Of a stretch of 44,979 nucleotides of DNA, positions 1 to 17,553 are shown one piece after another (positions within the stretch are counted from its first letter, which is position 1; the number at the start of each line of letters is the position of its first letter). The position numbers were made by a program, and so were the translations under genes. A model generated the notes under the pieces. It saw only the letters and a program-made list of their open reading frames with translations, was not told the origin of the DNA and made no database searches. Origin of the DNA: Gammaproteobacteria bacterium (GTDB lineage: Bacteria > Pseudomonadota > Gammaproteobacteria > Steroidobacterales > Steroidobacteraceae); contig PLEC01000011.1 of NCBI GenBank assembly GCA_003136935.1, forward strand, positions 22,599-67,577, in the 5' to 3' direction.

Positions 1-1089
1 GCGCAAGCGCCGGAGAGTTGCGGTGCCGTCATGGCGCATACGGTGACCGTTGCGGTGGCGCCGGTCCCCGGGGAACTCTCACGGCGCCACTCCCATGCGA
101 CCGAGTGGGTGTTGCTGACGTCCGGCACGACGGGCGCCCCGAAGCTGGTTCTCCACACCCTCGCGAGCCTCACGAGTGTGCTGGCGCAATGCGCTCCCGC
201 GCCCGGCAGCGCCCTGTGGAGCACGTTTTACGACATCCGCCGTTACGGCGGGCTGCAGGTGTTCCTGCGCGCCATGTATATCGGCTCGCTGCTGCTGTCA
301 GCGCCGGACGAGCCGGTGGGGGATTTCTTCGCGCGCGCACGCACTGCAGGGGTGACGCATATTTCCGGCACGCCATCACACTGGCGCCGGGCGCTGATGA
401 GCGGCACGACCGCCGCGCTGGCGCCAGCGTACGTGCGCCTGTCCGGAGAGATCGCCGACCAGGCGATCCTGGACAGCCTGCGCGCCGCCTACCCGCGCGC
501 GCGCATCGCGCACGCGTTCGCCTCCACCGAGGCGGGCGTTGCGTTCGAAGTCGACGACGGCCTGGCCGGCTTTCCGGCGGACCTGCTGCGTACGGCGGAC
601 GGAGAAATGCAGTTGCGGGTGATGGCCGATACGCTGCAGATCCGCTCGCCCGGAAATGCGGTGCGGTACCTTGGCGAGGAGGCGGGTGCACTGCGGCGCG
701 CCGATGGCTTCGTCGACACCGGCGACCGCGTCGAACTGCGCGGCGAGCGCTATCATTTCGTCGGCCGCGCCGGCGGAGTCATTAACGTCGGTGGCCTTAA
801 AGTACATCCGGAGGAGGTCGAAGCGGTGATCAACTCTCATCCGTGGGTGCGCATGTCGCTCGCCAGGGCGCGGCGTAGCCCGATCACCGGAGCGGTGGTG
901 ACGGCGGAGGTCGTGCTGGCGGAGCACGTCAGCGGTGCACGCGAGCGGCCGGCTGACGAGGCTCTGACGCAGGAAATTCTCGCGGCCTGCCGGCGTGCCC
1001 TGCCCGCACACAAGGTTCCTACCGTGATCCGCATCGTGCCGGCGCTCGAAGTCTCAGTTGCCGGAAAGCTGGTGCGTCCGAATGCGTAA
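1..1089 (+). CDS. AMP-forming acyl/aryl-CoA ligase (ANL superfamily), 5'-truncated by window edge
   Basis: The reading frame is open from the first base, so this is the C-terminal ~362 residues of a longer enzyme; the ATG at 31 is internal. The P-loop of adenylate-forming enzymes, LLTSGTTGAPK, lies near visible residue 40, whereas in complete family members it is around residue 150-190, so roughly 110-150 residues are missing upstream. Further ANL motifs follow in order: FASTEAG (A5-like), DTGDRVE (A7) and FVGRAGGVINVGGLKVHP (A8 hinge). The enzyme should activate a carboxylate as acyl-AMP and pass it to CoA or a carrier-protein thiol; the substrate cannot be read. Its stop overlaps the SDR start by 8 bp, so the two are translationally coupled. 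Family call is firm, substrate unknown. Confidence 0.9.
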   Translation, partial: AQAPESCGAVMAHTVTVAVAPVPGELSRRHSHATEWVLLTSGTTGAPKLVLHTLASLTSVLAQCAPAPGSALWSTFYDIRRYGGLQVFLRAMYIGSLLLSAPDEPVGDFFARARTAGVTHISGTPSHWRRALMSGTTAALAPAYVRLSGEIADQAILDSLRAAYPRARIAHAFASTEAGVAFEVDDGLAGFPADLLRTADGEMQLRVMADTLQIRSPGNAVRYLGEEAGALRRADGFVDTGDRVELRGERYHFVGRAGGVINVGGLKVHPEEVEAVINSHPWVRMSLARARRSPITGAVVTAEVVLAEHVSGARERPADEALTQEILAACRRALPAHKVPTVIRIVPALEVSVAGKLVRPNA

Positions 1090-1816
1090 CATCATCGTGA
1101 CCGGGGCCAGCCGGGGCCTGGGGCTTGCGATCGCCTCCACGCTCGCCGCCGGCGGCGACTGCGTGATCGCCGTGGCGCGCAATGCGACCCCGGAGCTTAC
1201 CGCTGCGACTGCGGCCGCAACACGCGCCGGCAGCGGCGCGGTCGAGTTCCGCTCATTCGACCTCACCGACACTCCCGCAATTGCTGGCTTCGTCTCCGGG
1301 GTGCGCAAGGAGTTTGGGCCCCTCTACGGACTCGTAAACAATGCGGGTCTTGGCACGGCCGGGGTGCTCGCCATCATGCGCGAGGCTGACATCGAGCAGC
1401 TCACGCGCCTGAACGTCATCGCACCGCTGGTGCTGACCAAGCACGTCGTGCGTGCAATGATGCTCGAACGCGCCGGGCGTATCGTCAACATCAGCTCCAT
1501 CATAGGGTCAACCGGCTACCCGGGCCTGTCGGCGTATGCCGCCACCAAGGCGGCCCTGCAGGGGTTCACGCGCTCGCTGGCGCGCGAAGTGGGCTCGCTG
1601 GGTATAACCGTCAACGCGGTGGCCCCGGGGTTCATCAGCACCGAGATGACGGCCGACCTGGGGGAGGAGCAGCGCGAGCAGATCGTGCGCCGCAGCGCGC
1701 TTAAGCGCATGGCTGTTCCGCAAGACGTGGCCGCCGCAGTGGAGTTCCTCATGAGCGAGAAGGCGAAGAACATTACCGGCATCACGCTGACCGTGGATGC
1801 GGGGAACACCGCATGA
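1082..1816 (+). CDS. Short-chain dehydrogenase/reductase, FabG-like
   Basis: A 244-residue classical SDR. It shows the nucleotide-binding TGASRGLG (residues 7-14), NNAG (86-89), the catalytic Ser in NISS (138/139) and YAATK (Tyr152, Lys156). Length matches 3-oxoacyl-ACP reductases, which reduce a beta-keto group on a carrier-protein-bound acyl chain with NADPH. The ATG at 1082 puts the Rossmann motif at its usual distance from the N-terminus; an upstream in-frame start at 1058 lies well inside the ligase gene. It overlaps the ligase by 8 bp and the next gene by ATGA, so all three are one transcript. With two carrier proteins nearby, the substrate may be carrier-bound; this is inference. Confidence 0.92.
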   Translation: MRNIIVTGASRGLGLAIASTLAAGGDCVIAVARNATPELTAATAAATRAGSGAVEFRSFDLTDTPAIAGFVSGVRKEFGPLYGLVNNAGLGTAGVLAIMREADIEQLTRLNVIAPLVLTKHVVRAMMLERAGRIVNISSIIGSTGYPGLSAYAATKAALQGFTRSLAREVGSLGITVNAVAPGFISTEMTADLGEEQREQIVRRSALKRMAVPQDVAAAVEFLMSEKAKNITGITLTVDAGNTA

Positions 1817-3093
1817 AGCCAGAGACGATTGCCCTGCACGGCGGGTTCGATTCGGATCCTACGACCAAGGCTGTCGCGGTGCCGATCTACCAGACGGTCG
1901 CGTACTCCTTCGACAGCGCGGCCCACGGCGCGGCATTATTCAACCTCGAGACGGAGGGTTACCGCTACAGCCGCATTTCCAACCCGACCAACGCGGTGCT
2001 GGAAGCGCGCGTGGCGCAGCTCGAGGGCGGCGCGGATGCATTGAGCGTGAGCTCCGGTCAGGCGGCGCTCTACTACTCGGTCCTGACGGTGACGCGCGCG
2101 GGGCTCAACATCGTTTCCCCGCCGCAGCTCTACGGCACTACCCATACCCTGTTTGCCCACGTGCTGCCGCAGCTCGGCATCCAGGTGCGTCTCGCGCAAT
2201 CTGATGAACCCGCAGCGCTCGCAGCCCTGATTGATGAGAACACGCGGGCGGTGTTCTGCGAGACCGTCGGCAACCCGGCGGGCAACGTCAGTGATCTCGC
2301 CGGGCTCGCCGCGGTCGCGCACGCGGCCGGGGTGCCTCTGATCGTGGACAACACCGTGCCGACACCCATACTCGTGCGCCCGATTGATCATGGCGCGGAC
2401 GTCGTGATCCACTCGCTCACCAAGTTCCTGGGCGGCCACGGCACCACGCTCGGCGGCATCATTATCGACAGCGGCAAGTTCCCCTGGAAACAACACGCGG
2501 CGCGCTTCCCGATGCTGACCGAACCAGATGAGTCCTACCATGGGCTCGTCTACACCGATCACTACGGCGCCTGCGCCTACATCGGACGCTGCCGTAGTGT
2601 CTTCCAGCGCACCATAGGCGCGGTGCTTGCGCCCATCAGCGCATTCCTGCTGCTGCAGGGTGTAGAAACCGTGGCGCTGCGGGTCGAGCGGCACGTCGAG
2701 AATGCGCGCCGCGTGGCTGAATTCCTGCGAGGTGATTCCCGTGTTGCTGCAGTAAGTTACGCGGGTTTCCCAGAAAGTCCCTACTATCCCCTGGTGCAGA
2801 AGTACCTGGGGGGTCGTGCCTGTTCGCTGCTGACGTTTGCAATCAAGGGGGGCTTTGAGGGTGGCGTACGCTTCTACGACGCGCTGCGCCTGTTCAAGCG
2901 GCTCGTGAACCTCGGGGATGCGAAGTCGCTGGCCTGCCATCCGGCGTCCACCACACATCGTCAAATGTCGCGCGAGGAACAGCGGCTCGCCGGCATCGGC
3001 CCCGAAACCATCCGCCTTAGTGTTGGTATCGAGCACATCGATGATATCATCGCCGATCTCGATCAGGCGCTGGCCGCAGCCACGGGTCCCTGA
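1813..3093 (+). CDS. Cys/Met metabolism PLP enzyme, O-acylhomoserine sulfhydrylase-like (MetY type)
   Basis: A 426-residue fold-type I PLP enzyme of the Cys/Met metabolism family. IALHGGF near the N-terminus, YQTVAYSF, YRYSRISNPT, SSGQAA, the cofactor-binding Asp in VDNT (Asp179) and the PLP lysine in SLTKFLGGHG (Lys204) are all present, and length fits MetY (~430 residues) better than MetB/MetC (~390). The family performs gamma-replacement on O-acetyl- or O-succinylhomoserine, normally with sulfide to give homocysteine. The start overlaps the SDR stop as ATGA. A MetA-clade acyltransferase lies at 6741-7757, so an activated homoserine route to a gamma-substituted amino acid is possible inside the cluster. 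Whether it serves methionine synthesis or a secondary product cannot be decided here. Confidence 0.9.
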   Translation: MKPETIALHGGFDSDPTTKAVAVPIYQTVAYSFDSAAHGAALFNLETEGYRYSRISNPTNAVLEARVAQLEGGADALSVSSGQAALYYSVLTVTRAGLNIVSPPQLYGTTHTLFAHVLPQLGIQVRLAQSDEPAALAALIDENTRAVFCETVGNPAGNVSDLAGLAAVAHAAGVPLIVDNTVPTPILVRPIDHGADVVIHSLTKFLGGHGTTLGGIIIDSGKFPWKQHAARFPMLTEPDESYHGLVYTDHYGACAYIGRCRSVFQRTIGAVLAPISAFLLLQGVETVALRVERHVENARRVAEFLRGDSRVAAVSYAGFPESPYYPLVQKYLGGRACSLLTFAIKGGFEGGVRFYDALRLFKRLVNLGDAKSLACHPASTTHRQMSREEQRLAGIGPETIRLSVGIEHIDDIIADLDQALAAATGP

Positions 3094-3113
3094 GCCTCGT
3101 GGATCGCCAGCCA

Positions 3114-4148
3114 ATGAGCGCCGAACCCATCACCGACCCGCAACCTGCCTTCCCCGTCGAGCGGTTGCCGACGGTTGCGATACTGGTGCCGTGCCTGAAC
3201 GAGGCCGCGGCGATTGCCAAGGTGGTGGACGATTTCAGGACCAGCGTGCCGCAGGCGCGGATCTTCGTTTACGACAACGGCTCCACGGACGACACCGTGT
3301 CCATAGCCCGCGCCGCCGGCGCGGTGGTGCGGGCCGAGCCCATGCGCGGCAAGGGCAACGTGGTGCGCCGCATGTTCGCCGACGTTGAGGCGGACGTGTT
3401 CGTGCTGGTCGATGGCGATGACACCTACGACGCCGCTGCGGCCCCCGAACTCATCGACAAGCTGCTGCGCGAATCCCTCGATATGGTCAACGCCGCGCGC
3501 CGCACCAGTGCGGCGGCGGCATACCGGACCGGTCACCGCTTCGGCAACTGGCTGCTGAGCACCCTGGTCGCCGCCCTGTTCGGCAACCGCCTCACCGACC
3601 TGCTGTCCGGGTACCGCGTGTTCTCCAGGCGATTCGTGAAGAGCTTCCCGGCACTCGCAGCGGGCTTCGAGACCGAGACCGAGCTGTCGGTGCATGCACT
3701 GCAGATGCGCCTGCCGGTGGCCGAGGTCGTGACTGCCTACCGCGAGCGGCCGCCGGGCTCAGCCAGCAAGCTGAATACCTACAAGGACGGAGTGCGGATA
3801 CTGCGCACCATCATGCAGCTGGTGAAGGAGGAGAAGCCGCTCGCGTTCTTCTCCGTGATCTCGGCGCTCCTCGCCGCGACCTCCCTGCTGCTGGGGGTTC
3901 CCGTCACCATCGAGTTCATGCATACGGGGCTCGTGCCGCGGCTTCCGACCGCACTGCTGGCGGCCTCCATCGCCATCCTGAGCTTCCTTGGCTTTGCCTG
4001 CGGGCTGATCCTGGACACCGTCAGCCGCGGCCGGATGGAGGCCAAGCGGCTTGCATACCTTTCGGTGCCGGTGCGATTCAGCTCGGCAGCGCGGGCCGAA
4101 AACGGTTTCGGCACCAGCGATAGGACAGCATCATCGCCGCGAGCGTAA
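3114..4148 (+). CDS. Glycosyltransferase family 2, polyprenyl-phosphate type with C-terminal membrane helices
   Basis: GT2 fold: ILVPCLNEAAAI at the N-terminus, YDNGSTDDT, and the metal-binding LVDGDDTYD. The C-terminal part has two hydrophobic stretches (about residues 245-270 and 280-305), as in dolichyl-/undecaprenyl-phosphate sugar transferases. It likely transfers a sugar from a nucleotide sugar to a polyprenyl phosphate at the inner membrane. I chose the ATG at 3114; a GTG at 3099 in the same frame is also possible. The stop lies only 20 bp after the preceding gene's stop to the start, so it may belong to the same operon. Its last ~23 codons overlap the antisense gene relic at 4078, and this tail looks off-family, which suggests the original 3' end was replaced. 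Confidence 0.88.
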   Translation: MSAEPITDPQPAFPVERLPTVAILVPCLNEAAAIAKVVDDFRTSVPQARIFVYDNGSTDDTVSIARAAGAVVRAEPMRGKGNVVRRMFADVEADVFVLVDGDDTYDAAAAPELIDKLLRESLDMVNAARRTSAAAAYRTGHRFGNWLLSTLVAALFGNRLTDLLSGYRVFSRRFVKSFPALAAGFETETELSVHALQMRLPVAEVVTAYRERPPGSASKLNTYKDGVRILRTIMQLVKEEKPLAFFSVISALLAATSLLLGVPVTIEFMHTGLVPRLPTALLAASIAILSFLGFACGLILDTVSRGRMEAKRLAYLSVPVRFSSAARAENGFGTSDRTASSPRA

Positions 4149-4510
4149 GCAGACACGTGACGCGACTCTGGTAGCGGTCATGGACCGACGACAGAGCGCC
4201 CGTCACCAGGGCGTTGGCGGCGATGGCGGCGAGCAGCGTCCCCGAGACGGCGGCGAGCCTCGGGCCGGTGGAATCGGCAAAGAGCAGCGCCATGGCTGCG
4301 CTGCTGACGCTGGCGGCGTAGGTCGCGACCGTCTCGTATCCGCCCGCGGCAGTCATTGGCGGTCCCCAGAGCACGAAATCCGCCGTCGATTCAAAGCGCT
4401 CCTGCTCCGGCGTCAGGTGATCCCGGTAGGCGCGTATGAGCGGCAGCTGCGGACAGATGGAATAGCCACGCTGCGGGCAGGCAGTCTCGAGATAATCAAG
4501 CGCCACACCG
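4078..4510 (-). pseudogene. C-terminal relic of a polytopic membrane protein (HDRYQSRV family)
   Basis: From about 4510 down to 4078 the minus strand encodes a coherent tail: an ectodomain piece with YLETACPQRGYSICPQLP and FVLWGPP, two hydrophobic helices and the segment HDRYQSRV. I recognise this arrangement from the C-terminus of a widespread uncharacterised family of large membrane proteins with many helices. Only ~140 residues remain, there is no credible start, and upstream the same frame runs into the GtrA gene out of frame. The 3' end overlaps the convergent GT2 by 71 bp. The most likely reading is a deletion that removed the N-terminal helices. A short functional protein starting at a GTG inside is possible but less likely. 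Confidence 0.6.
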
Positions 4511-4517
4511 TCATCGA

Positions 4518-4916
4518 TCAGACCGATGGGCGCCGGAACACGAAGCGCCGCGCCACGAAGTAGTTGATTGCCAGCCCGGCGAGTGATCCGGCGGCGACGC
4601 CAAGGACCGGATGGCGGGTGACGCGCGCACTGCCCTGGATCAGCGCGTAGTACACCCCGAGGTTGGCTGTGGCGCCCGCCAGCTGCGAGACGCCGTAGCG
4701 GGCCCACTCCGCGAACAGCTTCGGACTGGATGCGTCGCTGAAAGTCAGCCGCCGGTTCAGCGCCCAGGTGGCGGTCATGGCCGTCAGGTAGGAGAACACG
4801 CGCCCGAGCCGCAGTCCCGCGCCCAGCGCGATACCAAGGTACAGCGTGCAGCTGTCGACGACGAAGCCGGCGACGCCCACGATCGCGAAGCTCAGCAGGC
4901 GGCGGGGCTCGCTCAT
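4518..4916 (-). CDS. GtrA-like four-helix membrane protein
   Basis: A 132-residue protein with four hydrophobic helices and the GtrA signatures: FAIVGVAGFVVDS in helix 1, TWALNRRLTF between helices 2 and 3, RYGVSQLAG, and the C-terminal NYFVARRFVF. GtrA proteins are thought to help flip or move lipid-linked sugars made by a partner GT2, and a polyprenyl-phosphate-type GT2 lies next door at 3114. The ATG at 4916 gives the usual length; an in-frame ATG at 4937 would add seven residues. It faces away from the PLP decarboxylase, so a divergent promoter may sit between 4937 and 5062. Confidence 0.85.
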   Translation of the reverse strand: MSEPRRLLSFAIVGVAGFVVDSCTLYLGIALGAGLRLGRVFSYLTAMTATWALNRRLTFSDASSPKLFAEWARYGVSQLAGATANLGVYYALIQGSARVTRHPVLGVAAGSLAGLAINYFVARRFVFRRPSV

Positions 4917-5061
4917 CGATCGTGGCTGGCCGGTCATGTCTGTTTGTAGCCGCGGCGGGTTCCCGTCATGATACGTGAACACCGTTTGCGGGCATGCCGA
5001 ATCACGTGCAACACATAATCGCCAGCGCCGCTGCGCTGCCGACGACGGGCACGAGGCGTTG

Positions 5062-6468
5062 ATGGCGCTGCGTGCTCCGGCAGCGGCGCTCTTCCCATCG
5101 CGCGCCCAGCGCGAGCGCCTGGATGATCTGCTGACGCGTACTCTGGCGGCGGCGGCCGAGCGCGTCGCGCGCGGTCCGGTCATGCCGGACCTGGACATGG
5201 TGCAGTTTCGCGCGGAGCTGGCACGTTTCGATTTCGCGGCCCCGCAAGACCTGCAGCGGCTCATTGGCTGGATCACGACGCAGCTCGAGCACGGTGCCGT
5301 GCATATGGGCAATCCGCGCTACTTCGGTCTCTTCAACCCGGCAGCCAACTTCCCTTCGCAGTGCGCCGATCGCATCAGCGGCGCATTTAACCCGCAGCTG
5401 GCGAGTTCCGGCTCCTCCCCGGCGCCGGTGGAGATCGAGGCGCACGTGGTGCGCGCGATCGCGCGGCGTGCGGGACTGCCCGACGAATCCGCCGGGCACT
5501 TCACCACTGCCGGATCCGAAGCCAACTACACCGCACTCCTGTGCGCCCTGACGCGTGCGGCGCCGGCCTTTGCGAGCGAGGGCGTGCGCGCGTTTTCAGG
5601 TCCGGTCGCGATGTACACCTCGCGCGAGTGCCAGCCAGCCTGGTTCAAGATCGCGCACCAGGCCGGAATCGGACGCGCCGCCCTGAAGCTGATCGCGACC
5701 ACCGCGCGCGGCGAAATGGACGGCGACGCGCTGACGCAGGCCATCGAGAGCGATCGGCGGGCGGGGGTTGTGCCGGTGCTGATCTCTGCCACCGCCGGCA
5801 CCACCGGTGGCGGCATGGTTGACCCGCTGGCGCACTGCGCAGACGTCGCGCGCAGCTACGGACTCTGGTACCACGTTGACGCGGCCTGGGGGGGCGCGGC
5901 GCTGTGCTCAGCGCGCCTGCGCGGTGTGCTCGCCGGCATCGAGCGGGCCGACTCGCTCACCATCGACGCTCACAAGTGGTTTGCCACCACCATGGGCTGC
6001 GGGATGTTCGTCACGCGCCACCCGGCGCTGCTGAGCGAGACGTTCCGGGCGGCGACGGACTTCATGCCTTCGACGGTTTCGGCGCTCGACCCGTACCTGA
6101 ACAGCGCGCAATGGTCGCGCCGCTTCATGGGACTGAAGCTGTTCCTGTCGCTGGCCACTGCCGGTTGGGACGGGTACGCCGTGCACGTGGAGCGGGCCGT
6201 GGAGGTGATCGCGCTGATTAGGGCGCGCCTGCTTGCCGCGGGCTGGTCAGCGCGTAACGACTCGCAACTCGCGGTGCTGTGCGTGGTGCCCCCGGACGGG
6301 TTTCCGAGCATTCGCGAGATCGTCCGCCGGGTACTCGCCTCGGGTCGCGCCTGGGTGGCGGCGACGAGCTTTGCCGGTCAGGAGGTGGTGCGGATCTGCG
6401 CAACCCACGGGGAGATCTCAGCCGCGGACATCGACGAACTGGTCGCGTCCTTAAACGCCGCGCGCTGA
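5062..6468 (+). CDS. Group II pyridoxal-dependent amino acid decarboxylase
   Basis: A 468-residue fold-type I PLP enzyme of the group II decarboxylases (aromatic amino acid, glutamate, cysteine-sulfinate and diaminobutyrate decarboxylases). Visible are the N-terminal H-x-GNPRYFG substrate region (81-89), TTAGSEANYTALL (148-160), SATAGTTGGG, the cofactor Asp in HVDAAWGG (Asp273) and the PLP lysine in IDAHKWF (Lys305). It should decarboxylate a free amino acid to an amine. I start it at the ATG at 5062, after a G-rich stretch; upstream in-frame codons look non-coding. Its 3' end overlaps the convergent carrier-protein gene by 18 bp. Substrate cannot be predicted from these motifs. It differs from the LysA-like decarboxylase usual in XrtA loci. 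Confidence 0.9.
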   Translation: MALRAPAAALFPSRAQRERLDDLLTRTLAAAAERVARGPVMPDLDMVQFRAELARFDFAAPQDLQRLIGWITTQLEHGAVHMGNPRYFGLFNPAANFPSQCADRISGAFNPQLASSGSSPAPVEIEAHVVRAIARRAGLPDESAGHFTTAGSEANYTALLCALTRAAPAFASEGVRAFSGPVAMYTSRECQPAWFKIAHQAGIGRAALKLIATTARGEMDGDALTQAIESDRRAGVVPVLISATAGTTGGGMVDPLAHCADVARSYGLWYHVDAAWGGAALCSARLRGVLAGIERADSLTIDAHKWFATTMGCGMFVTRHPALLSETFRAATDFMPSTVSALDPYLNSAQWSRRFMGLKLFLSLATAGWDGYAVHVERAVEVIALIRARLLAAGWSARNDSQLAVLCVVPPDGFPSIREIVRRVLASGRAWVAATSFAGQEVVRICATHGEISAADIDELVASLNAAR

Positions 6469-6735
6469 CTCGCCCAGCCTGTTCAGCATCGCTTCGACCG
6501 AAGCGATGGACTCGAAATTTTCCGGCGTGATGTCGGTCTGGGGAATCGCAAGGTTGAATTCCACCTCGATGGCGAGCATCAGTTTCACCATCTTGATGGA
6601 GCTCATGCCGAGATCGCTTAAGCGCGCATCGATCGGCATGGGGCGCGCGCCACCCGCCTGGCCCAGGATCTGACGGATCAGGCCGATAAGGCGTTCGCGC
6701 GTGGTGGCCTGCGGCTGGGATTTCACGTCGTTCAT
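6451..6735 (-). CDS. Stand-alone acyl/aminoacyl carrier protein, candidate partner of the aa:CP ligase
   Basis: A 94-residue carrier protein. The 4'-phosphopantetheine attachment serine is Ser46 in DLGMSSIKM, where the usual D-S-L reads S-S-I. Downstream, MLAIEVEF and IPQTDITPENFESIASV resemble the small carrier proteins that pair with amino acid:[carrier protein] ligases, rather than fatty-acid ACP. The start lies 5 bp after the MetA-clade stop, so the two form one operon, divergent from the dehydrogenase/aa:CP-ligase operon. That arrangement makes it the first candidate acceptor of the aminoacyl group. The assignment of partner is inference from position and motif. Confidence 0.9.
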   Translation of the reverse strand: MNDVKSQPQATTRERLIGLIRQILGQAGGARPMPIDARLSDLGMSSIKMVKLMLAIEVEFNLAIPQTDITPENFESIASVEAMLNRLGESARGV

Positions 6736-6740
6736 GGACT

Positions 6741-7757
6741 TCAGTGCACCGCTGTTGTGAGTGCGAGGGGTCGATGCGCGCTGGCATCGGGGCGTACCGC
6801 CCCCGCGAGCAACGCGAGCCAGTTGCCGTAGATGGTTGCCGCAGCGTCGGTCCAGGGATTGCCCAGGTCCAGCGCGGCCGCCGCAGTCGGAAAGTCCGCC
6901 AGCAGTTCCGGCCGCGGGCCCCGCAGCGCCCGCTGGCGGAACTCGTCCAGCACGGCGGATGCGGCGGGGGAGAAGTAATCGCGTGGCTGCAGCGGGTAGG
7001 CCGCCTGCTCGCCGCGCAGAAAGCGGCCGACATCGCGGCGATACTCCCTCAGGAGCGTGACATTCTCGTACTCGGGATGCCCCTGGAAGCACAGGAACAG
7101 GCTGCGCCGCTGGCGGATGAAGGTGTCCGCGCCGGTGGCGCCCGAGGAGCTGAGGATCGTGTATCCCGACTCGCGCAGCGCCACGATGGGTAAGTCGTTC
7201 CAACGGGAGTGCGGCAGCCTCAGCGGCGCCCCGATCCCGGCTGTGAGTGGATGCGCCGCCAGAATATCGTGGCGGAATACGCCGCAGAGCTTTTGCGCAA
7301 GGCGCTGCCGCTGCACACCGTCGAAGTGCAGTACGGCTGCGTGCGCGGCGAGGCACGAGCAGATGCTGGAGGCGGTATGGGCGTCCGCCCATTCCAGTAC
7401 CTCAACGAATCTTGGCCAGTACGGCTCCTCGGGCAGCGGGCGACCGCTGGCTTCCATGCCGGTGACGATCAGGGCATCCGGTGGATCGGATTGCAGCTCA
7501 TCGACGTGCCAGTAGCCGCGCGTGGCAATATGCTCGCGGGCCGCCGGCGTGCGCGCCACCTCAGGGAGGGTGAAAAACCGCAATTTCACGGGGTCGGAGC
7601 CGGCGGCGGTCTCGAGAAGCCGTGTGAACTGCGTCTCAGTGGATTCCAATGCCGAATCGGGCATGTTGTTCACCAGCCCCACCACGACGCCGCGCGCGCG
7701 CTCCGACGCTCTGGCGGCGGGCGTCCGGCGGGGGCTGGATTCGATTTCAAGCGGCAT
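6741..7757 (-). CDS. MetA-clade homoserine O-acyltransferase-like protein
   Basis: A 338-residue member of the MetA family (class I glutamine-amidotransferase-like fold). LVNNMPDSALE, LIVTGMEAS, the nucleophile region SCLAAHAAVLHFDG (catalytic Cys; MetA has SCWGAQA), PHSRWNDLP, QGHPEYE and LLREYRRD are present. MetA moves succinyl or acetyl from CoA to the homoserine hydroxyl. Here the TGAPVE substrate loop is TGMEAS, and Trp/Gln next to the Cys are Leu/His, so acyl donor or acceptor may differ. It is coupled to the carrier protein 5 bp downstream. Together with the MetY-like enzyme at 1813 it could make a gamma-substituted amino acid; alternatively its acyl donor or acceptor could be carrier-bound. 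A housekeeping methionine role is less likely given the neighbours. Confidence 0.85.
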   Translation of the reverse strand: MPLEIESSPRRTPAARASERARGVVVGLVNNMPDSALESTETQFTRLLETAAGSDPVKLRFFTLPEVARTPAAREHIATRGYWHVDELQSDPPDALIVTGMEASGRPLPEEPYWPRFVEVLEWADAHTASSICSCLAAHAAVLHFDGVQRQRLAQKLCGVFRHDILAAHPLTAGIGAPLRLPHSRWNDLPIVALRESGYTILSSSGATGADTFIRQRRSLFLCFQGHPEYENVTLLREYRRDVGRFLRGEQAAYPLQPRDYFSPAASAVLDEFRQRALRGPRPELLADFPTAAAALDLGNPWTDAAATIYGNWLALLAGAVRPDASAHRPLALTTAVH

Positions 7758-7871
7758 CGGGCTTTACTTAAATATAATGTTCAATGGCTTGAGGCCGTCG
7801 ACAGATCCGTCAAGTCCCTACTGGTAGCTTAGCGGTCAAGTACGACGAAAACATAGATAAAGGTCACTAAC
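7758..7871. promoter_or_regulatory. Divergent promoter region between the MetA/carrier operon and the dehydrogenase/aa:CP-ligase operon
   Basis: This 114-bp gap is the AT-richest patch of region A. It holds AATATAAT at 7771-7778, which read on the minus strand gives a -10-like TATATT for the MetA gene. An AAAGG ribosome-binding site at 7859-7863 stands 8 nt before the GTG at 7872. No clear -35 boxes are visible, so promoter calls are tentative, but the divergent layout means the two operons are probably co-regulated from here. Confidence 0.35.
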
Positions 7872-9080
7872 GTGGAAGCGTCGCCGACGACTGCGGCGGG
7901 TGCGCGGGGCACCGATGCCCAGCCCGCCGATTTAAGAACCCGGGCCCGCGCGGTCGCGGCGATCGCCGCGCAGCACGCGCCTGACGTAGACAGCGCCGCA
8001 CGCTTTCCGGCCGAGGCGTTCGCCGCGGTCAAGGCGCAGCGACTGCTCGGCATCGCGGTGCCGAAAGCCGCTGGCGGCGAGGGCGCCTCCATCGCCGACG
8101 TGGCCGATGTCTGCTACCAGCTCGGTCAGTCATGCGCCTCGACCGGCATGATCTACGCGATGCACCAGATCAAGATCGCCTGCATCCAGCGCCACATGCG
8201 CGGCAGCGCGACCCTGGCGGAGACCTTGCGTCGCGTGTGCGCGGAGCAGCTGCTGCTGGCGTCTTCGACCACGGAGGGGCAGGGCGGCGGCAATGTGCGC
8301 TCCAGCGAGGCGCCGATCGAGTACCAGGAAGGACGCATCACGCTCGAGCGTGCAGCGAGCGTCATATCCTACGGCGCGTACGCGGATGGCATCGTCACGA
8401 CGGCACGCCGCACCAGCACCTCATTGCCGTCGGATCAGGTGCTGATCGCGTTTCTGAAAGCCGACTACACGCTGACGCGACTACAGGGATGGAACACGCT
8501 CGGCATGCGTGGCACCTGCAGCGAGGGGTACACCCTGCGTGCCTCGGGGGTTCCCGGGCAGATCATGCCCGACGCGTACGAGATCATTCACGCCCAGACC
8601 ATGGTGCCCACGGCGCACCTCTTGTGGGGTTCGGTGTGGACGGGCATCGCCGCCGGCGCCGTGACGCGCGCCCAGGCCTTTATCCGCCAGGCGGTGCGTG
8701 CGAGCGGCGGCAACATGCCGCCCGGTGCGCCGCAGTTCACCAAGGCGCTGGGCACGCTGCGGACGTTACGCGGGATGCTCGCGACCTCGCTGCGCACTTA
8801 CGAGCGCAGCATGGGCGATCCCAAGGCGCTCGCCTCGCTGGAATTTCAGTCCATGATCACGCTCACCAAGGTCGAGGCGTCGGAACTCGCGGTGGCAACC
8901 GTCATGAGCGCCCTGCGTGCGTGCGGACTGTCCGGCTATCGCAGTGACAGCGAGTTCAGCATCGAGCGCCACCTGCGCGACGTACTGTCCTCGCCGATCA
9001 TGATCAACAACGACCGCATTCTGGCGAACCTCGCCAATTCGGCGCTGCTGACACCGATTCCGGGCTCGGTGCGCGACTGA
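7872..9080 (+). CDS. Acyl-CoA dehydrogenase-fold flavoenzyme
   Basis: A 402-residue protein with the three-part acyl-CoA dehydrogenase layout: helical N-domain with a LGQSCASTGMIYAMHQ stretch, a middle beta-domain with GWNTLGMRGTCSEGYTL (the family's conserved G-x-R-T/G-S-like turn), and a C-terminal four-helix domain. The family uses FAD to oxidise thioester-bound substrates at the alpha-beta position, or is recruited as a hydroxylase. The start is GTG with AAAGG 8 nt upstream. It sits 5 bp ahead of the aa:CP ligase, so its substrate may be an aminoacyl thioester on the carrier protein, as with prolyl-carrier oxidases in pyrrole biosynthesis. The catalytic base was not assigned with confidence. 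Confidence 0.88.
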   Translation: MEASPTTAAGARGTDAQPADLRTRARAVAAIAAQHAPDVDSAARFPAEAFAAVKAQRLLGIAVPKAAGGEGASIADVADVCYQLGQSCASTGMIYAMHQIKIACIQRHMRGSATLAETLRRVCAEQLLLASSTTEGQGGGNVRSSEAPIEYQEGRITLERAASVISYGAYADGIVTTARRTSTSLPSDQVLIAFLKADYTLTRLQGWNTLGMRGTCSEGYTLRASGVPGQIMPDAYEIIHAQTMVPTAHLLWGSVWTGIAAGAVTRAQAFIRQAVRASGGNMPPGAPQFTKALGTLRTLRGMLATSLRTYERSMGDPKALASLEFQSMITLTKVEASELAVATVMSALRACGLSGYRSDSEFSIERHLRDVLSSPIMINNDRILANLANSALLTPIPGSVRD

Positions 9081-9085
9081 CCGCC

Positions 9086-9997
9086 GTGGCGGCCGTTTCC
9101 AGCAACCAGGATCCGCTCGCCCCGGTGGCGGCGGCGCTGTTTCATCCGCTGGGCGTGGACGGCGTGTACGCGCGCACGGCCCTCTACGAGGGCATGATCG
9201 AACGGTTGACGGCCTGGATTTCCCGGCAGCGCGATCCGCGCGCGGAGGTGCTGCGCTTCCCGCCGGTCATGAGCCGCAGCCAGGTGGAAAAATCCGGCTA
9301 CCTGAAGAGTTTCCCCAACCTGCTCGGGTGCGTGTGCGCGCTGCATGGCTCGGAGGCGCAGATCCGCACCGCCGCCCAGGAACACGAGACCGGCGGCGAC
9401 TGGACCCGCGCGCTCACCCCATCCGACCTCGTGCTGTCCCCGGCTGCGTGCTATCCGGTCTATCCGCTCGCGGCGGCCCGCGGGCCGGTGCCCGCCGGCG
9501 GGCTGCTGTTCGATGTCGCGGCGGACTGTTTTCGTCACGAGCCGTCGCGGGCCCTGAATCGTCTGCAATCCTTTCGCATGCGTGAGTTCGTGCGCATTGC
9601 CACGCCGGAGGAAATCACGACATTTGGCGAGTACTGGATGGCGCGCGCGCCGCAACTGGCCGCTGAGCTGGCGTTGCCGTGCAAACTCGACGTGGCGAGC
9701 GATCCGTTTTTCGGCCGCGTGGGGCAGATCATGGCGGTTAGCCAGCGGCAGCAGGCGCTGAAGTTTGAGCTGCTGATTCCCTATCATGAAGGCGCGGTGC
9801 CTACGGCCTGCATGAGCCTTAACTATCACCGTGACCACTTCGGCGGTGTCTGGCAGCTGGCGAATGCCGCCGGCGAGCGCTCGCACACCAGCTGCTTCGC
9901 GTTTGGCGTGGACCGGCTGACTATCGCGCTGTTCTGCGTGCACGGCGTGGACGTGCCGGGCTGGCCGCAGGGAGTCCGGCGCGCGCTCGCGATCTAG
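9086..9997 (+). CDS. Amino acid:[carrier protein] ligase (SerRS-like class II synthetase catalytic core)
   Basis: A 303-residue stand-alone class II aminoacyl-tRNA-synthetase core with no tRNA-binding arm. Motif 2 is FRHE (149-152) followed by RLQSFRMREFVRI; motif 3 is FGVDRL (273-278). Cys122 (AACYPVYP), Glu167 (MREF) and Cys270 (TSCFAFG) match the three zinc ligands I recall for the characterised Bradyrhizobium enzyme Bll0957 (Cys131, Glu176, Cys279) with a constant offset of nine. Such enzymes adenylate a small free amino acid (Gly or Ala in studied cases) and transfer it to the phosphopantetheine of a small carrier protein, not to tRNA. The start is GTG, 5 bp after the dehydrogenase. Likely acceptors are the carrier proteins at 6451 and 11353. 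Family firm, amino acid unknown. Confidence 0.93.
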   Translation: MAAVSSNQDPLAPVAAALFHPLGVDGVYARTALYEGMIERLTAWISRQRDPRAEVLRFPPVMSRSQVEKSGYLKSFPNLLGCVCALHGSEAQIRTAAQEHETGGDWTRALTPSDLVLSPAACYPVYPLAAARGPVPAGGLLFDVAADCFRHEPSRALNRLQSFRMREFVRIATPEEITTFGEYWMARAPQLAAELALPCKLDVASDPFFGRVGQIMAVSQRQQALKFELLIPYHEGAVPTACMSLNYHRDHFGGVWQLANAAGERSHTSCFAFGVDRLTIALFCVHGVDVPGWPQGVRRALAI

Positions 9998-10010
9998 AGG
10001 CCGCCCATGC

Positions 10011-10943
10011 ATGCCGCTCGATCCCTACGCCAAGAGGTTTCTTGACCGTCTCGTCGCACTGAACCCGCCGAGCGCCTTGTCCTTGTCCGTCGCCGAGCGC
10101 CGTGAGGCGCTTGCCAACCTTCTCAGCCTGTCCGCCGACGGCGCGCCCGACGCCACGGTGGAGGATCGCGTCATCCCGGGGCCTGGCGGGGCGCTCCCCG
10201 TGCGCATCTACACGCCTGCCGGGCAGCCTCACGGCCGTCTGCCCGCGCTCGTGTATTTTCACGGCGGCGGCCTGGTCGCGGGCACTCTCGATTCCTATGA
10301 CGGCATCGCACGCGAACTCGCCCATGCGAGCGGTTGCCGGCTCATTGCGGTCGGCTACCGGCTCGCTCCGGAAGCGCCATTCCCGGCGGCGGTCGAGGAT
10401 GCCTGCGCGGCGACGGCCTGGATCGCGGCGCACACGGAGGACTTCGCGGTCGATCCTGAGCGCCTGTGCGTCGCCGGCGATTCGGCCGGCGCGACCCTCG
10501 CCGCGGTGGTGTGTCAGAGAGCGGCTGGCAGCGGACTGCATCTGGCGCTGCAGTTTCTCTTGTGCCCGATCCTGGATCATGCGGGGGTGACGCCTTCGCG
10601 GCGCGCCTTCGACGCGGGGTACCTGGTGGATGCGGCCACGCTCGCGCACGACCTCAGGCACTACCTCGGAGCGGCGGGCGATGTGCACGACCCGCGCGTC
10701 TCGCCTTTGCGTGGTGCCGGGCTGCGCGGGCTGCCACCGGCCTGCATCCATACCGCGGAATTTGATCCGCTGCGCGATGAGGGCCGGGACTACGCGGCAG
10801 CTCTGCAGGACGCGGGCGTGAGGACGCTATATCGCTGTCACTTAGGTATGATCCACCTGTTCTACGGTATGGGGGTCGTCATTCCGTACGCGGCGGTCGC
10901 GTATCGGGAGATGGGCGCCGATATTCGTTCGCTGCTGAGCTGA
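10011..10943 (+). CDS. Alpha/beta hydrolase, hormone-sensitive lipase (HSL) family
   Basis: A 310-residue alpha/beta-hydrolase fold-3 protein. The oxyanion HGGG is at 84-87, the nucleophile is Ser158 in GDSAG, and the acid and base are Asp252 (FDPLRDEG) and His282 (GMIHLFYG), so the triad is complete. Family members cleave short-chain esters or act as thioesterases. No signal peptide is visible, so it is cytoplasmic. It lies 13 bp behind the aa:CP ligase in the same direction; release of a carrier-bound intermediate is an attractive role but only inferred. The ATG at 10011 is in frame with all motifs. Confidence 0.9.
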   Translation: MPLDPYAKRFLDRLVALNPPSALSLSVAERREALANLLSLSADGAPDATVEDRVIPGPGGALPVRIYTPAGQPHGRLPALVYFHGGGLVAGTLDSYDGIARELAHASGCRLIAVGYRLAPEAPFPAAVEDACAATAWIAAHTEDFAVDPERLCVAGDSAGATLAAVVCQRAAGSGLHLALQFLLCPILDHAGVTPSRRAFDAGYLVDAATLAHDLRHYLGAAGDVHDPRVSPLRGAGLRGLPPACIHTAEFDPLRDEGRDYAAALQDAGVRTLYRCHLGMIHLFYGMGVVIPYAAVAYREMGADIRSLLS

Positions 10944-10957
10944 GACGAGGTAAGTGC

Positions 10958-11341
10958 GTGACGGATCGCCGCGATACCGACCAGTTGTTGCGCGAGTTGC
11001 ACGCAGCACGAGTCGCAGGGCAACTAGAGAGGCTGTGCGCTGTATTTGCCGGGGATGCAGTATTCCGCATCGCCGGCACGAGTGAGGGCAAGCCGATTGC
11101 GATCGCCGCAACCGGCATCGAGGAAATCCGGACGTGGCTCGCGATGCTGGTCAAGACGTTCAGACTTACCGGATATGAAGCGTCCCCGAGTGTGATCGAG
11201 GGTCACCGGGCAATGATCAACTGGCGCGCCCAGATCCATTCCAAGATCACCGGTGCTGTCGTGTCCACCGAGCTGGTGGATCTGGTCGAAGTGCGAAATG
11301 GCCGCATCGGCTCGTACTTCGAGCTGTTCGTGCCGCGTTAG
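10958..11341 (+). CDS. SnoaL-like / NTF2-fold small protein
   Basis: A 127-residue protein with the pattern of the NTF2-like superfamily: an N-terminal helix pair (LLRELHAARVAGQLERL), then GDAVFRIAG, a central WRAQIHSK strand and a C-terminal ELVDLVEVRNGRIGSYFELF. In this fold the cavity can host cyclisation, isomerisation or hydrolysis, or simply bind a ligand. A specific reaction cannot be read. The start is GTG, 14 bp after the hydrolase stop, and the stop is 11 bp before the next carrier protein, so it belongs to the same operon. Confidence 0.75.
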   Translation: MTDRRDTDQLLRELHAARVAGQLERLCAVFAGDAVFRIAGTSEGKPIAIAATGIEEIRTWLAMLVKTFRLTGYEASPSVIEGHRAMINWRAQIHSKITGAVVSTELVDLVEVRNGRIGSYFELFVPR

Positions 11342-11352
11342 GGGTCAGGAAG

Positions 11353-11592
11353 ATGTCGGTGAGGTCCACGATCACGTCCCTTTTTGAGCAGGTCGCACGC
11401 GAGCAGCAACGAACGCTTGCGCCGCTGTCCGATGATCTGAAGCTCCTGAAGTCGGGCCTGGACTCGTTGAGCTTCGCGCTCATTGTCGCGCGTCTGGAAG
11501 ATACGCTCGGCTACGACCCGTTCGAGACCGCCGAGAGTTTCCCGGTGACCTTCGGCGATTTCGTCAAACTATACGAAAGCCGGCCCAAGTAG
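11353..11592 (+). CDS. Acyl/peptidyl carrier protein (second carrier)
   Basis: A 79-residue carrier protein with the attachment serine at Ser38 in SGLDSLSFAL and the tail LGYDPFETAESFPVTFGDFV. This subtype typically sits beside AMP-dependent ligases in small clusters, and a FATP-type ligase lies convergently at 11677. It differs clearly from the carrier at 6451 (DSL versus SSI motif, different helix III), so the two are probably charged by different enzymes. Last gene of the plus-strand operon, followed directly by a hairpin. Confidence 0.92.
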   Translation: MSVRSTITSLFEQVAREQQRTLAPLSDDLKLLKSGLDSLSFALIVARLEDTLGYDPFETAESFPVTFGDFVKLYESRPK

Positions 11593-11599
11593 TTCATCG

Positions 11600-11626
11600 G
11601 CCGAAATCGCAGGAAGCGATTTCGGC
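11600..11626. terminator. 11-bp perfect hairpin between convergent genes
   Basis: An 11-bp perfect inverted repeat (11600-11610 with 11616-11626) around a 5-nt AGGAA loop, 7 bp after the carrier-protein stop and 50 bp from the stop of the convergent ligase. No T-run follows on either strand, so it is a bidirectional terminator or RNA-stabilising hairpin rather than a textbook intrinsic terminator. Confidence 0.6.
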
Positions 11627-11676
11627 GGACAGTAGTTCCGTTTCCGGCGGTGACCGCAGTGCGGGCGCGCCGCTCA

Positions 11677-13449
11677 CTACAGCCGCAGGGTGCCGGCGCG
11701 GATGTGCTCGTGCAGGGTGGCATCCATTTTCACGTAGGCCGCAGCGCGACGGTCGTCGAAGTAGAGCGGATCGCTCACCTGCGCCGGATCGAACCCCTGT
11801 TGGGCGAGTTTCCGGCTTCTGTGTCTGAATGTTCCGGTCAGCTCGAGCGACGCCACCAGCCGCACGAACAGCGGCCGCGCATAGGCCGGCAGCTTCTCCG
11901 CCACGTAAAGCCGGAAGTCGTCGAGGTCGAAGCGCGCATCGACGACTAACGCGACCATGCCGGCGCGACCTTCGTGATGTGGCACGGTGACGCCGTACAC
12001 GGCGGCGTCGGCGACTCCGTGAAAGGCGCTGATCACGGACAATACCTCGGTCGTGGAGACGTTTTCTCCCTTCCAGCGGAAGGTGTCGCCGGCGCGATCC
12101 ACGAAGTAAAAAAATCCGTCGCCGTCCTGGCGCATCAGGTCGCCGGTCCGGTACCAGGCGTCGCCTGGCTCGAAAACGTCCTGCAGCACTTTCTTTTTCG
12201 AGGCCTGGGTATCCGCGTAGCCCTCGAAGTGTCCGCCGGCCGCGTCGTCGCGGCTGGAGAGCCTGCCGATCGCCTCGCCGACTTCCCCCGGCGCGCAGCG
12301 TTCACACCATCCGGCCGCGTTGCGCAGTGGTGCGCCGCTGTCCGCATCGACTTTCGCCAGCACGACGGCGGCGCGCTGCGCGAGAAAAGCTGGAATTTTC
12401 CCGATGGCGCCGCGGCGGCCCTCGCAGTTGTAGAGCGAGAAGCTGCCCTCGGTCGCCGCGTAGTACTCGAGGATCTGCGGAATGCGGAAGCGTTCCTGGA
12501 ATTGCTCCCAGACATCCGCGCGCAGTCCGTTGCCGCAGCACAGGCGCAGCGTGTGATGGGTTTCCGCCTCCTGGTGCGGACTCGCCACGAGGTAGCGGCA
12601 CAGTTCACCGATGTACTGGAACAACGTACAGCGCTCTGCAACGACGTCGGGCCAGAAGTCGCTCGCTGAAAACCGTTCGAGCAGCACCACCGTGGCGCCA
12701 CCCACGAGCGGCGCGCCGGCCGCCACCACGCCACCGATGCTGTGGTACATCGGCAGGCAGTTGTACATCCGGTCACCCGGGTGGATCGCCATCATGCCGG
12801 CGAACCAGTGCGTCCACTGGACTATGCGGTAATGGCTGACGTTGGCAGCCTTGGGTGCGCCCGTCGTTCCGGAAGTGTAGATGCACAGTGCGCGGTCGGT
12901 GAGCGCCGGCAGCGCGCGCTCCGCAGCCGTCAGCGAGCGCGCCGACTCGCGCTCCACGGTGCGCTCCAGGCGTGGCAGCTGACCATCGTCGCCGCCGTGG
13001 ACCCAGCAGCGCACGCTATCCGCAAATCCCGCGCGCGCGGACGCCAGGGCGGCAGCCAGGGTTGCCGAAGTGATCAGGTGTCGGGGTGCGGCGGAACGGA
13101 TGGCGTGCGCGAGCAGCTCGCCGCTCAGATAGGTATTAAGAAGCGCAGCCGTGACGCCGATCCTGGTGAGTCCCAGCCAGATGGCCAGATACTCCGGACA
13201 ATTGGTCATGAGCAGGCACACCGAGTCGCCCGGGGACAGACCCTGGGACAGCCCCCAGCGCGCGTAGCGTGCTGCGGATTCGGCGAGCGTGCGGTAGGTT
13301 AGAGTCAGGCCTGAGAACTCAAGTGCAGGCGTTGAGTCAAAGCGTTCCGCCAGGTCTTCGATAATGATTGGAAAGATGGCCGACTGGCCTCGTTCGACGG
13401 GCGCTGTCGCTTGCAGCGCGCGCAGCCAAGCTTTCGCCGGTGAACTCAC
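11677..13449 (-). CDS. FATP-type (very-long-chain) acyl-CoA synthetase
   Basis: A 590-residue full-length ANL enzyme of the fatty-acid-transport-protein subgroup. The P-loop is YTSGTTGAPK (191-200); then LPMYHSIGG, EYYAATEGSF (FATP-style), YRTGDLMRQDGDG, FVDRAGDTFRWKGENVSTTEV and a C-terminal domain. It should convert a fatty or hydrophobic carboxylate to acyl-AMP and then to CoA or carrier thioester. The GTG at 13449 gives a normal N-terminus. It is monocistronic on the minus strand and converges with the aa:CP operon, so it could charge the second carrier protein (11353) with an acyl chain to be joined to the amino acid. This last step is inference. Confidence 0.92.
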   Translation of the reverse strand: MSSPAKAWLRALQATAPVERGQSAIFPIIIEDLAERFDSTPALEFSGLTLTYRTLAESAARYARWGLSQGLSPGDSVCLLMTNCPEYLAIWLGLTRIGVTAALLNTYLSGELLAHAIRSAAPRHLITSATLAAALASARAGFADSVRCWVHGGDDGQLPRLERTVERESARSLTAAERALPALTDRALCIYTSGTTGAPKAANVSHYRIVQWTHWFAGMMAIHPGDRMYNCLPMYHSIGGVVAAGAPLVGGATVVLLERFSASDFWPDVVAERCTLFQYIGELCRYLVASPHQEAETHHTLRLCCGNGLRADVWEQFQERFRIPQILEYYAATEGSFSLYNCEGRRGAIGKIPAFLAQRAAVVLAKVDADSGAPLRNAAGWCERCAPGEVGEAIGRLSSRDDAAGGHFEGYADTQASKKKVLQDVFEPGDAWYRTGDLMRQDGDGFFYFVDRAGDTFRWKGENVSTTEVLSVISAFHGVADAAVYGVTVPHHEGRAGMVALVVDARFDLDDFRLYVAEKLPAYARPLFVRLVASLELTGTFRHRSRKLAQQGFDPAQVSDPLYFDDRRAAAYVKMDATLHEHIRAGTLRL

Positions 13450-13580: not shown

Positions 13581-14312
13581 GCGGTGAGTTTGCCCGCGTC
13601 GTGAGCGCCAACCCTGTTGACCATGTGCTGCCCGGCGGGCCGCTGTATTTCCCCGCCGAGTCACCGCTGGGCGCGGCACGGTTACACGGTGCTGCGCATG
13701 GACCTCGCTGGCATCGGCGACAGCGACACGCGTGCCGGACGCCCCGACGATGAGGTCTTCCCGCCGGCGGCGCTCGCTGACATCCGTGCGGCGATGGAAT
13801 TTGTTCAGGCGCGCTACGGGATTCGCGACATCACGCTCGCGGGCCCGTGCTCAGGGGCCTATCACGCGCTGCGCGCAGCCGTGGCCGGACTGCCGGTGAA
13901 TTGTCTGCTGATGGTGAACCCGGAAAATTTCTTCTCGGAGGAGGGGGCTTCGGTGCGCGAGCTGCAACTCGCAGAGGTAGTGCGCAATCCGAGCCTCTAC
14001 CGCGAGCGGGCGTTCTCCCCCGAGGCGTGGAAGCGGCTTCTCAGCGGCCAGGTGAGTCGAAGGCGCGTGAGCTGGCGAGATTCCTCCATATCCAACTGCC
14101 CCGCGATCTGGGCCGTGAGCTTGAAGTGCTCGGCGCGCGCAACGTGCGTCTGGTGTTCGTTTTGCCAGGGGTGAAGCGGGAATAGACCTGCTGAAGATCC
14201 AGGCAGGCTCAACCATCCGGCGGCTCGGTGAACGCTGTCACCTGCACATCATCGGCGGCGGAGACCATACCTTCAGCCGCAGCGCGCGAGAAGCCTCGCC
14301 TTAGTCACACGG
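13581..14312 (+). pseudogene. Frameshifted alpha/beta-hydrolase relic
   Basis: Coherent hydrolase sequence runs through three frames. Frame 1 (about 13660-14060) gives GYTVLRMDLAGIGDSD, DIRAAMEFVQARYGI and GPCSGAYHALRAAV (nucleophile elbow, here Pro-Cys-Ser), then MVNPENFF and AWKRLLSGQV. Frame 2 (about 14065-14165) gives ARFLHIQLPRDLGRELEVL. Frame 3 (about 14161-14310) gives GIDLLKIQAGSTIRRLGERC and GGGDHTFS, which contains the catalytic His. No frame carries a complete protein, and the N-terminus also shifts near 13660. The parent resembles hydrolases found with AMP-ligases and carrier proteins, and hydrolases are normal partners in XrtA loci. It is dead unless the shifts are sequencing errors. 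Confidence 0.75.
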
Positions 14313-14756
14313 GGGCGCTGCCCGCGCACCTGACAATAATTGATTTCCTCGTGAGCGCCGTCGCAGTTTTGCGCTCGCGACTTCCGGCAAAGCGCGCACA
14401 CGCAACGCACGCGTCCGCGTGCCCGGGTACTTGGCGGATAAGTGACGCAGCGGATAACTCCGTGTCGTTACCCGGCAACGCGATGCGACGCGTCATGTTG
14501 GCTGCGCGGTCAACGGCTTACGCGCGGGGTGTGCGTTACAGCACACGGGGTTTGTCGGCGCACGCCGACCCTCAGAGTGTCATAAAGCGCGCGATAACGA
14601 CGCCGTTACTCTCAACACAATGACGCACAAGGAAAAGATCGCGATGGCATAGCGCTTGCTTCTCTGAATTCCCGACCTGCGGTCTCGAGCTTGGTCGCTT
14701 GGACTGCGTAAAGGCGAATTGTGAACCCGCGCGCTTGCGTGTGGGGAGGAGTGGCT
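14313..14756. other. Intergenic region without a recognisable gene
   Basis: About 440 bp between the hydrolase relic and the lipoprotein. An apparent reading frame covers part of it but has no recognisable motif. It holds an 18-bp inverted repeat at 14529-14546 and a GGGGAGGA ribosome-binding site at 14743-14750. Confidence 0.5.
14529..14546. promoter_or_regulatory. CRP-like inverted repeat (variant half-sites)
   Basis: GTGTGC-N6-GCACAC, perfect 6-bp arms with a 6-bp spacer. The TGTGC/GCACA half-sites differ by one base from the CRP consensus TGTGA/TCACA. It lies ~210 bp before the lipoprotein, rather far for direct control, but shares arm length and spacing with the sites at 15170 and 25139. 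Confidence 0.35.
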
Positions 14757-15152
14757 TTGCCTAGAATCAAGAGCATTGTTGTGGCGCTGGGACTATTGAG
14801 CCTGGCCGGATGTAATTTCGACAACGCCACGCCCGCCGGCGTGCAGGGAGGCACCAGTCAATCCAGCACCGGCGGGGGCACCAGCGCCAGCGCAGGCACT
14901 GCACAGCTGGCATGGCAGATACCAACGGAAAATACCAACGGCACGCCGCTCACGGATCTGGCCGGATATACGATCGTCTACGGCACGAGCCCGGGTGTCC
15001 TGGACCACTCGGCGCAGGTCACGGACATCGAAACTACAAGTTATGTCGTGACGGGTCTCAGCCAGGGAACCTGGTACTTCGCCATCCTGTCCAATACTTC
15101 GTCGGGCGAGAGCAGCGCGCTTTCGGACATCGCGAGCACGACCATCTCCTGA
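14757..15152 (+). CDS. Lipoprotein with fibronectin type III domain
   Basis: The N-terminus MPRIKSIVVALGLLSLAGC is a lipoprotein signal peptide with lipobox LAGC, so the mature protein starts at that Cys and is lipid-anchored. A Gly/Ser/Thr-rich linker follows, then one FN3 domain (LAWQIPTENTN, GYTIVYGTSPG, TSYVVTGLSQGTWYFAI). FN3 lipoproteins of this kind occur beside XrtA exopolysaccharide genes. I chose the TTG at 14757 because GGGGAGGA ends 6 nt before it and the signal peptide then begins correctly; GTG codons at 14751 and 14721 in the same frame are alternatives. The role is unknown; a matrix or carbohydrate contact at the cell surface is plausible. Confidence 0.8.
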   Translation: MPRIKSIVVALGLLSLAGCNFDNATPAGVQGGTSQSSTGGGTSASAGTAQLAWQIPTENTNGTPLTDLAGYTIVYGTSPGVLDHSAQVTDIETTSYVVTGLSQGTWYFAILSNTSSGESSALSDIASTTIS

Positions 15153-15169
15153 GGGTCGCTAACAGGCGA

Positions 15170-15187
15170 GTGTGACGTGGGTCACAC
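15170..15187. promoter_or_regulatory. CRP/FNR-family operator upstream of the exosortase operon
   Basis: GTGTGACGTGGGTCACAC contains a perfect TGTGA-N6-TCACA palindrome, the consensus of CRP and of relatives such as Xanthomonas Clp. The -10-like TATACT at 15191-15196 begins four bases after it, so the operator covers the expected -35 region. Occupancy would then block this promoter unless another promoter is used. Regulator identity is inference. Confidence 0.7.
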
Positions 15188-15190
15188 CGG

Positions 15191-15196
15191 TATACT
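15191..15196 (+). promoter_or_regulatory. Candidate -10 box of the XrtA operon
   Basis: TATACT, 5 of 6 matches to TATAAT, about 140 bp before the exosortase start and just behind the CRP-like palindrome. No good -35 hexamer is seen because the palindrome occupies that place. Confidence 0.4.
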
Positions 15197-15336
15197 AAAG
15201 CTGGGCGGTGCGCGGCGCCAACCAGCGAACATAGCCGCATGTGGCCGAAGAGCTTGTGGCCACCGTACAAGAACCATTAAAAACTGCCGGTGAGGATGTG
15301 CCGGCGAGGCGCATGAGGCTCAAGGGGAATCACTCG

Positions 15337-17539: not shown

Positions 17540-17553
17540 AGTAAGGAGACTGC

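Follow-up and report, generated by a model that had tools for sequence, protein, structure and literature searches.

The MetA-like homoserine O-acyltransferase gene (HTS) and the neighboring carrier protein gene of the window, by which we mean the whole 44,979-nucleotide stretch of DNA analyzed here, probably belong not to methionine synthesis but to a biosynthetic cluster of 12 to 13 genes that is accessory and distributed horizontally, with the HTS serving a MetY-like enzyme and the carrier serving an amino acid:[carrier protein] (aa:CP) ligase. The initial annotation had described a MetA-like gene followed after five bases by a stand-alone carrier, and both genes were confirmed at their positions on the minus strand (Table 1). 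In its usual role, MetA catalyzes the opening step of methionine synthesis. The enzyme families involved are all known, and what is of interest is the cluster more than the two-gene pair.

The conserved cluster occupies positions 1 to 13449 of the window and holds the full gammaproteobacterial gene set, with the 5' end of one AMP ligase just outside. It comprises two AMP ligases, a short-chain dehydrogenase/reductase (SDR), MetY, a PLP decarboxylase, the carrier, the HTS, a dehydrogenase, the aa:CP ligase, an esterase, a SnoaL-like protein and a second carrier, and clusters of this kind are common to many soil bacteria. The MetY enzyme is the sole copy above the TIGR01326 cut-off in its own genome. 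At about 3099 to 4707, between MetY and the decarboxylase, lie a GT2 glycosyltransferase and a small second ORF without a Pfam match; this glycosyltransferase/membrane segment looks like a lineage-specific insertion, because MetY and the decarboxylase are adjacent in the nearest relative (locus L002). An exosortase A/PEP-CTERM exopolysaccharide locus (13617 to 21487; XrtA, export protein, chain-length determinant and outer-membrane protein) starts directly past the cluster, and exosortase-A-type hydrolases are also found just upstream, in locus L130.

Table 1. Genes of the conserved cluster, with positions in the window unless a locus is named
Feature	Position	Strand	Evidence or remark
AMP-dependent ligase (AMPL)	1..1089	+	PF00501, PF13193 over cut-off; 405 bits vs cluster AMPL
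AMPL, full ORF, 405 aa	L130:10471-11688		Start precedes window
SDR/FabG-like reductase	1058..1816	+	PF00106 2e-53; cluster member
MetY-like O-acetylhomoserine sulfhydrylase family enzyme (gamma-replacement)	1813..3093	+	TIGR01326 585 bits, cut-off 495
PLP-dependent group II decarboxylase	4975..6468	+	PF00282 1.2e-56; PDB relatives are amino acid decarboxylases
Aminoacyl carrier protein, 94 aa	6451..6735	-	PF00550 over cut-off; best PDB match 4h2s_C 1.1e-15
MetA/HTS-like homoserine O-acyltransferase (HTS), 338 aa	6741..7757	-	PF04204, NF003776
Acyl-CoA-dehydrogenase-fold flavoenzyme (ACAD)	7872..9080	+	PF02771 3.2e-10
Amino acid:[carrier protein] ligase, seryl-tRNA-synthetase-like, 303 aa	9086..9997	+	NF005479 429.8 bits, cut-off 357
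Alpha/beta hydrolase, hormone-sensitive-lipase type	10011..10943	+	LipP1 family 309 bits, under cut-off 350; cluster member
SnoaL-like protein	10958..11341	+	170 bits vs L004:5219-5623 (PF12680 over cut-off)
Second carrier protein (CP2)	11353..11592	+	81 bits vs L009:1805-2188 (PF00550 over cut-off)
FATP-type long-chain acyl-CoA synthetase (FADD)	11677..13449	-	NF006134 715.8 bits, cut-off 625; cluster member

The HTS matches PF04204 with an E value of 4.6e-58 (197 bits against a gathering score of 27) and passes the gammaproteobacterial MetA equivalog model NF003776 (PRK05368.1-3) with 380.2 bits against a cut-off of 358, whereas the main group of that model scores about 420 to 543 bits; it falls far short of the NCBIfam models for E. 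coli-type succinyl- and acetyltransferases. Its predicted structure has a pLDDT of 91.6, and the top seven PDB matches are all HTS enzymes. It shares with the MetA enzymes of E. coli (7cbe), B. cereus (2ghr) and T. maritima (2h2w) the fold, the Cys-His-Glu triad and the Lys/Ser/Arg residues that bind homoserine, but at about 25% identity, with a different substrate loop (TG-x-E-P in its family instead of TGAP-[LV]-[GE]), a C-terminal extension, an accessory distribution and a cluster context. For E. coli MetA we take the triad to be C142, H235 and E237 and the homoserine-binding residues K163, S192 and R249. In an alignment of 81 cluster-family HTS rows, C135, H227, E229, K156 and R241 never vary; S184 is kept in 78 of the 81. 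By sequence and predicted structure, the window HTS is a MetA-fold enzyme with an intact active site. Its differences from the HTS at L002:9001-10017 are spread nearly evenly over the three codon positions (37/33/47), which hints at either weak constraint or adaptive change.

The initial annotation had also pointed to altered residues around the active site, and all of these are real. The E. coli segment T106-G-A-P-L-G111 aligns with T99-G-M-E-A-S104, and C142/W143/Q146 align with C135/L136/H139. However, when 30 NF003776 proteins of ordinary Gammaproteobacteria were added to the alignment, L136 was present in all 111 proteins (81/81 and 30/30) and H139 in 109 (79/81 and 30/30). The Leu and His are therefore not special and say nothing about carrier use, and we dropped them as a sign of it. 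By this alignment the TG-x-E-P loop is the only one of the changes that is particular to the cluster HTS family, with E102 in 79 of 81 rows and P103 in 80, whereas the 30 NF003776 proteins carry TGANV. The window HTS itself departs from its family loop, with Ala instead of Pro at position 103. Compared with NF003776 MetA, it has the same SCLAxHA motif and a similar overall length, but it differs in the loop and falls in a separate, fully supported clade.

We then compared the occurrence of the cluster genes among genomes. Of the 25 genomes of the genus, 7 carry both the HTS and the aa:CP ligase, and the other 18, some of them 98% complete, carry neither; the chance of two identical sets is 1/C(25,7) = 2.1e-6. 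Cluster-type MetY is found in those 7 and in one partial genome (G332) and is missing from 17. A MetX homologue is close to universal in the genus. As judged from gene presence, gains and losses of the cluster genes coincide. In a wider comparison, the ligase exceeds its cut-off in 33 of 50 HTS-bearing genomes versus 4 of 276 in the class, and in 35 of the 50 a separate MetX scores 290 bits or more. The partial genome G332 (L206, G332:C196) carries CP2-AMPL-SDR-MetY-decarboxylase without HTS, carrier or ligase, which suggests either that the cluster is modular or that the remaining half lies at another place or is not in the assembly.

Because 18 of the 25 genus genomes lack this HTS while most genus members have a MetX homologue, the HTS at 6741 to 7757 is, on the evidence of gene content, not the housekeeping methionine enzyme, and both HTS and MetY are accessory; the earlier proposal that this is no housekeeping enzyme and that its pathway includes a carrier was thus borne out. 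A plain methionine pathway that merely happens to lie beside the cluster is unlikely, although HTS and MetY would make a complete route from homoserine to homocysteine, the genome has a single HTS, and the NCBIfam name of this protein is MetA. The own-genome MetX homologue was considered as plain proof of a separate housekeeping route, but its neighbor is cysK, so it could be a serine O-succinyltransferase, which would leave the housekeeping homoserine acyltransferase without an assigned gene. For this reason our argument rests on the congeners without this HTS. Also against a methionine role, the own genome contains a cystathionine gamma-synthase-like gene, no genome of the genus has the HTS without the ligase, and an Rfam search of the window and five related loci found no SAM/SAH riboswitch and only one tRNA.

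Phylogeny and gene-neighbor statistics, which the initial annotation had suggested as a check, set the cluster HTS apart from NF003776 but moved the emphasis from the carrier to MetY. A tree built from 78 HTS proteins places every cluster HTS in one clade, sister to the NF003776 main group (support, 100), and traces direct HTS-carrier adjacency to one event, within a single gammaproteobacterial clade of 9 rows (SH-aLRT, 99). In the window, the HTS stop codon TGA (6741 to 6743) and the carrier ATG at 6735 lie on the same strand with five bases between them, and across the clade the coupling is kept, most members having either a 4-base ATGA overlap or a short gap. This conserved coupling, often as an ATGA overlap, is the reason why HTS and carrier seem to be co-expressed in the clade and why the two may interact directly there.

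The 80 HTS relatives collected come from Gammaproteobacteria, Alphaproteobacteria, Acidobacteriota, Rokuibacteriota and Gemmatimonadota, plus one record labeled Mycobacteriaceae. In these loci, which were gathered by an HTS query and so favor HTS-centered statistics (the genus and whole-genome counts are independent of it), a MetY-like gene lies directly upstream of the HTS on the same strand in 65 of the 80 and somewhere in the locus in 74. The gene set recurs in several phyla in varying order: CP2 with AMPL, SDR, FATP-type ligase, MetY, HTS and a PLP decarboxylase, which is replaced by a class-IV aminotransferase in many Alphaproteobacteria, together with the carrier, dehydrogenase, aa:CP ligase, esterase and a SnoaL-like or tandem-GNAT protein. 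A conserved cluster protein of 283 to 306 aa without a Pfam match (L079:4530-5447 and 16 other alphaproteobacterial proteins) is absent from the window; its predicted structure resembles tandem-GNAT acyltransferases of the Eis and N-myristoyltransferase types. Acidobacterial and rokubacterial clusters (L009, L012, L014, L020, L031, L037, L069) have a haem-oxygenase-like protein (weak PF14518) beside CP2/AMPL. Where the genomes of such hosts were searched, the aa:CP ligase was absent, so HTS and ligase are not obligate partners everywhere.

The carrier probably has a partner of its own. Its motif GMSS contains the probable phosphopantetheine site Ser46, and among PDB entries it comes closest to "Aminoacyl carrier protein 1" (4h2s_C), with which the Bradyrhizobium ligase Bll0957 is paired. 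The window ligase matches Bll0957 at 2.4e-129 with 63% identity, keeps the reference Zn ligands C131/E176/C279 as C122/E167/C270, and shows a SerRS-like catalytic core without a tRNA-binding domain. Like the Bll0957 system (3mey, 4h2s-4h2v), it has its cognate carrier and an ACAD close by, but here the ligase sits inside a cluster with HTS, MetY, PLP decarboxylase and FADD. The ACAD, located between carrier and ligase, adjoins the ligase in 31 of 31 loci measured and lies beside the carrier in nearly all, usually a few hundred bases off and divergent; in the window clade this gap is about 1 kb and is occupied by the HTS. Plasmids of Azospirillum, Rhizobium and Mycetohabitans (L214, L215, L217) carry the same trio without metA or metY, in operons that also contain DUF1839, GH2 glycoside hydrolase and alpha/beta hydrolase genes. 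A search for HTS among plasmids gave no match. The matches of the carrier assign it to the aa:CP-ligase type, and since the trio also occurs without HTS, it most likely serves the ligase rather than the HTS. The contig of the window also encodes another, divergent aa:CP ligase (L131:8422-9333; G000:C34:84427-85323), which comes with a carrier of its own, is surrounded by exopolysaccharide genes (O-antigen ligase, glycosyltransferases, sugar transferase, alpha/beta hydrolase) and has no HTS or MetY nearby.

These results bear on the earlier suggestion that the acyl donor or the acceptor of the HTS is carrier-bound, that is, an acyl-carrier or a homoserinyl-carrier. The five-base spacing, the ATGA overlaps conserved in the clade and the loop altered at the acyl-specificity site all speak for it, but we regard it as quite improbable: the adjacency arose once and is absent from most family members that have the same HTS, the carrier type fits the ligase, the residues for binding free homoserine are kept, the trio exists where HTS does not, and the HTS itself is paired with MetY in most loci. 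Very improbable, too, is loading of O-acylhomoserine or the MetY product onto the carrier by the ligase, for which the gathering of all enzymes in one cluster and the relaxed specificity of aa:CP ligases that Mocibob reportedly described in 2010 can be cited, but which sits poorly with the resemblance to a glycine-loading ligase and with the trio's occurrence where HTS and MetY are absent. Of the earlier idea that an O-acylhomoserine-like amino acid is made for loading, the making is likely, whereas MetY is the more likely destination.

Our preferred reading, in which the HTS feeds MetY and the carrier serves the ligase, allows a pathway to be proposed from the family assignments, which the profile matches establish, with putative substrates and product. 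The HTS would acylate homoserine from a CoA donor, and the O-acylhomoserine so formed would, we infer, be used by MetY in a pathway not described before. MetY would then swap the acyloxy group for a nucleophile, and the resulting amino acid would be processed by the PLP decarboxylase or, in many Alphaproteobacteria, by the class-IV aminotransferase. O-acylhomoserine and a MetY-like enzyme work together outside methionine synthesis in gamma-replacement pathways of the rhizobitoxine type. The window cluster has the same pairing, but no RtxA-type fusion was seen in it, and the carrier/ligase trio and the fatty-acyl ligase are extra.

In a separate branch, the ligase would load a small amino acid, glycine or another, onto the carrier. 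Bll0957 is a glycine-loading ligase, and glycine is suggested as the substrate of the window ligase by its similarity to that enzyme. The ACAD would oxidize the amino acid while carrier-bound. In standing beside an aminoacyl carrier this enzyme resembles the prolyl-S-carrier dehydrogenases RedW and PigA, whose models it matches weakly; however, the similarity is far under the equivalog cut-offs, and loading would be by an aaRS-like ligase and likely of glycine, not proline. FADD, AMPL, the second carrier and the SDR could supply an acyl part. Tentatively, then, and with less confidence than we place in the cluster assignment, the product may join a carrier-loaded, ACAD-oxidized small amino acid with a MetY-made, decarboxylated or transaminated homoserine-derived amino acid and a fatty acyl group, which would represent a widespread undescribed pathway.

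A 2022 review (PMC9437257) gives the role of the characterized aa:CP ligases as unknown. Our search of the open literature, which leaves many subscription papers outside it, found no report of aa:CP ligase clusters with MetY or MetA. With its defined set of partner genes from several phyla and with hosts in culture, among them Bradyrhizobium aeschynomenes, Bauldia and Prosthecomicrobium, the cluster allows the role of these ligases to be tested. A MetA annotation in such clusters does not imply methionine synthesis. If the proposed pathway is true, it would give aa:CP ligases their first biological role and would place a MetA enzyme outside methionine synthesis.
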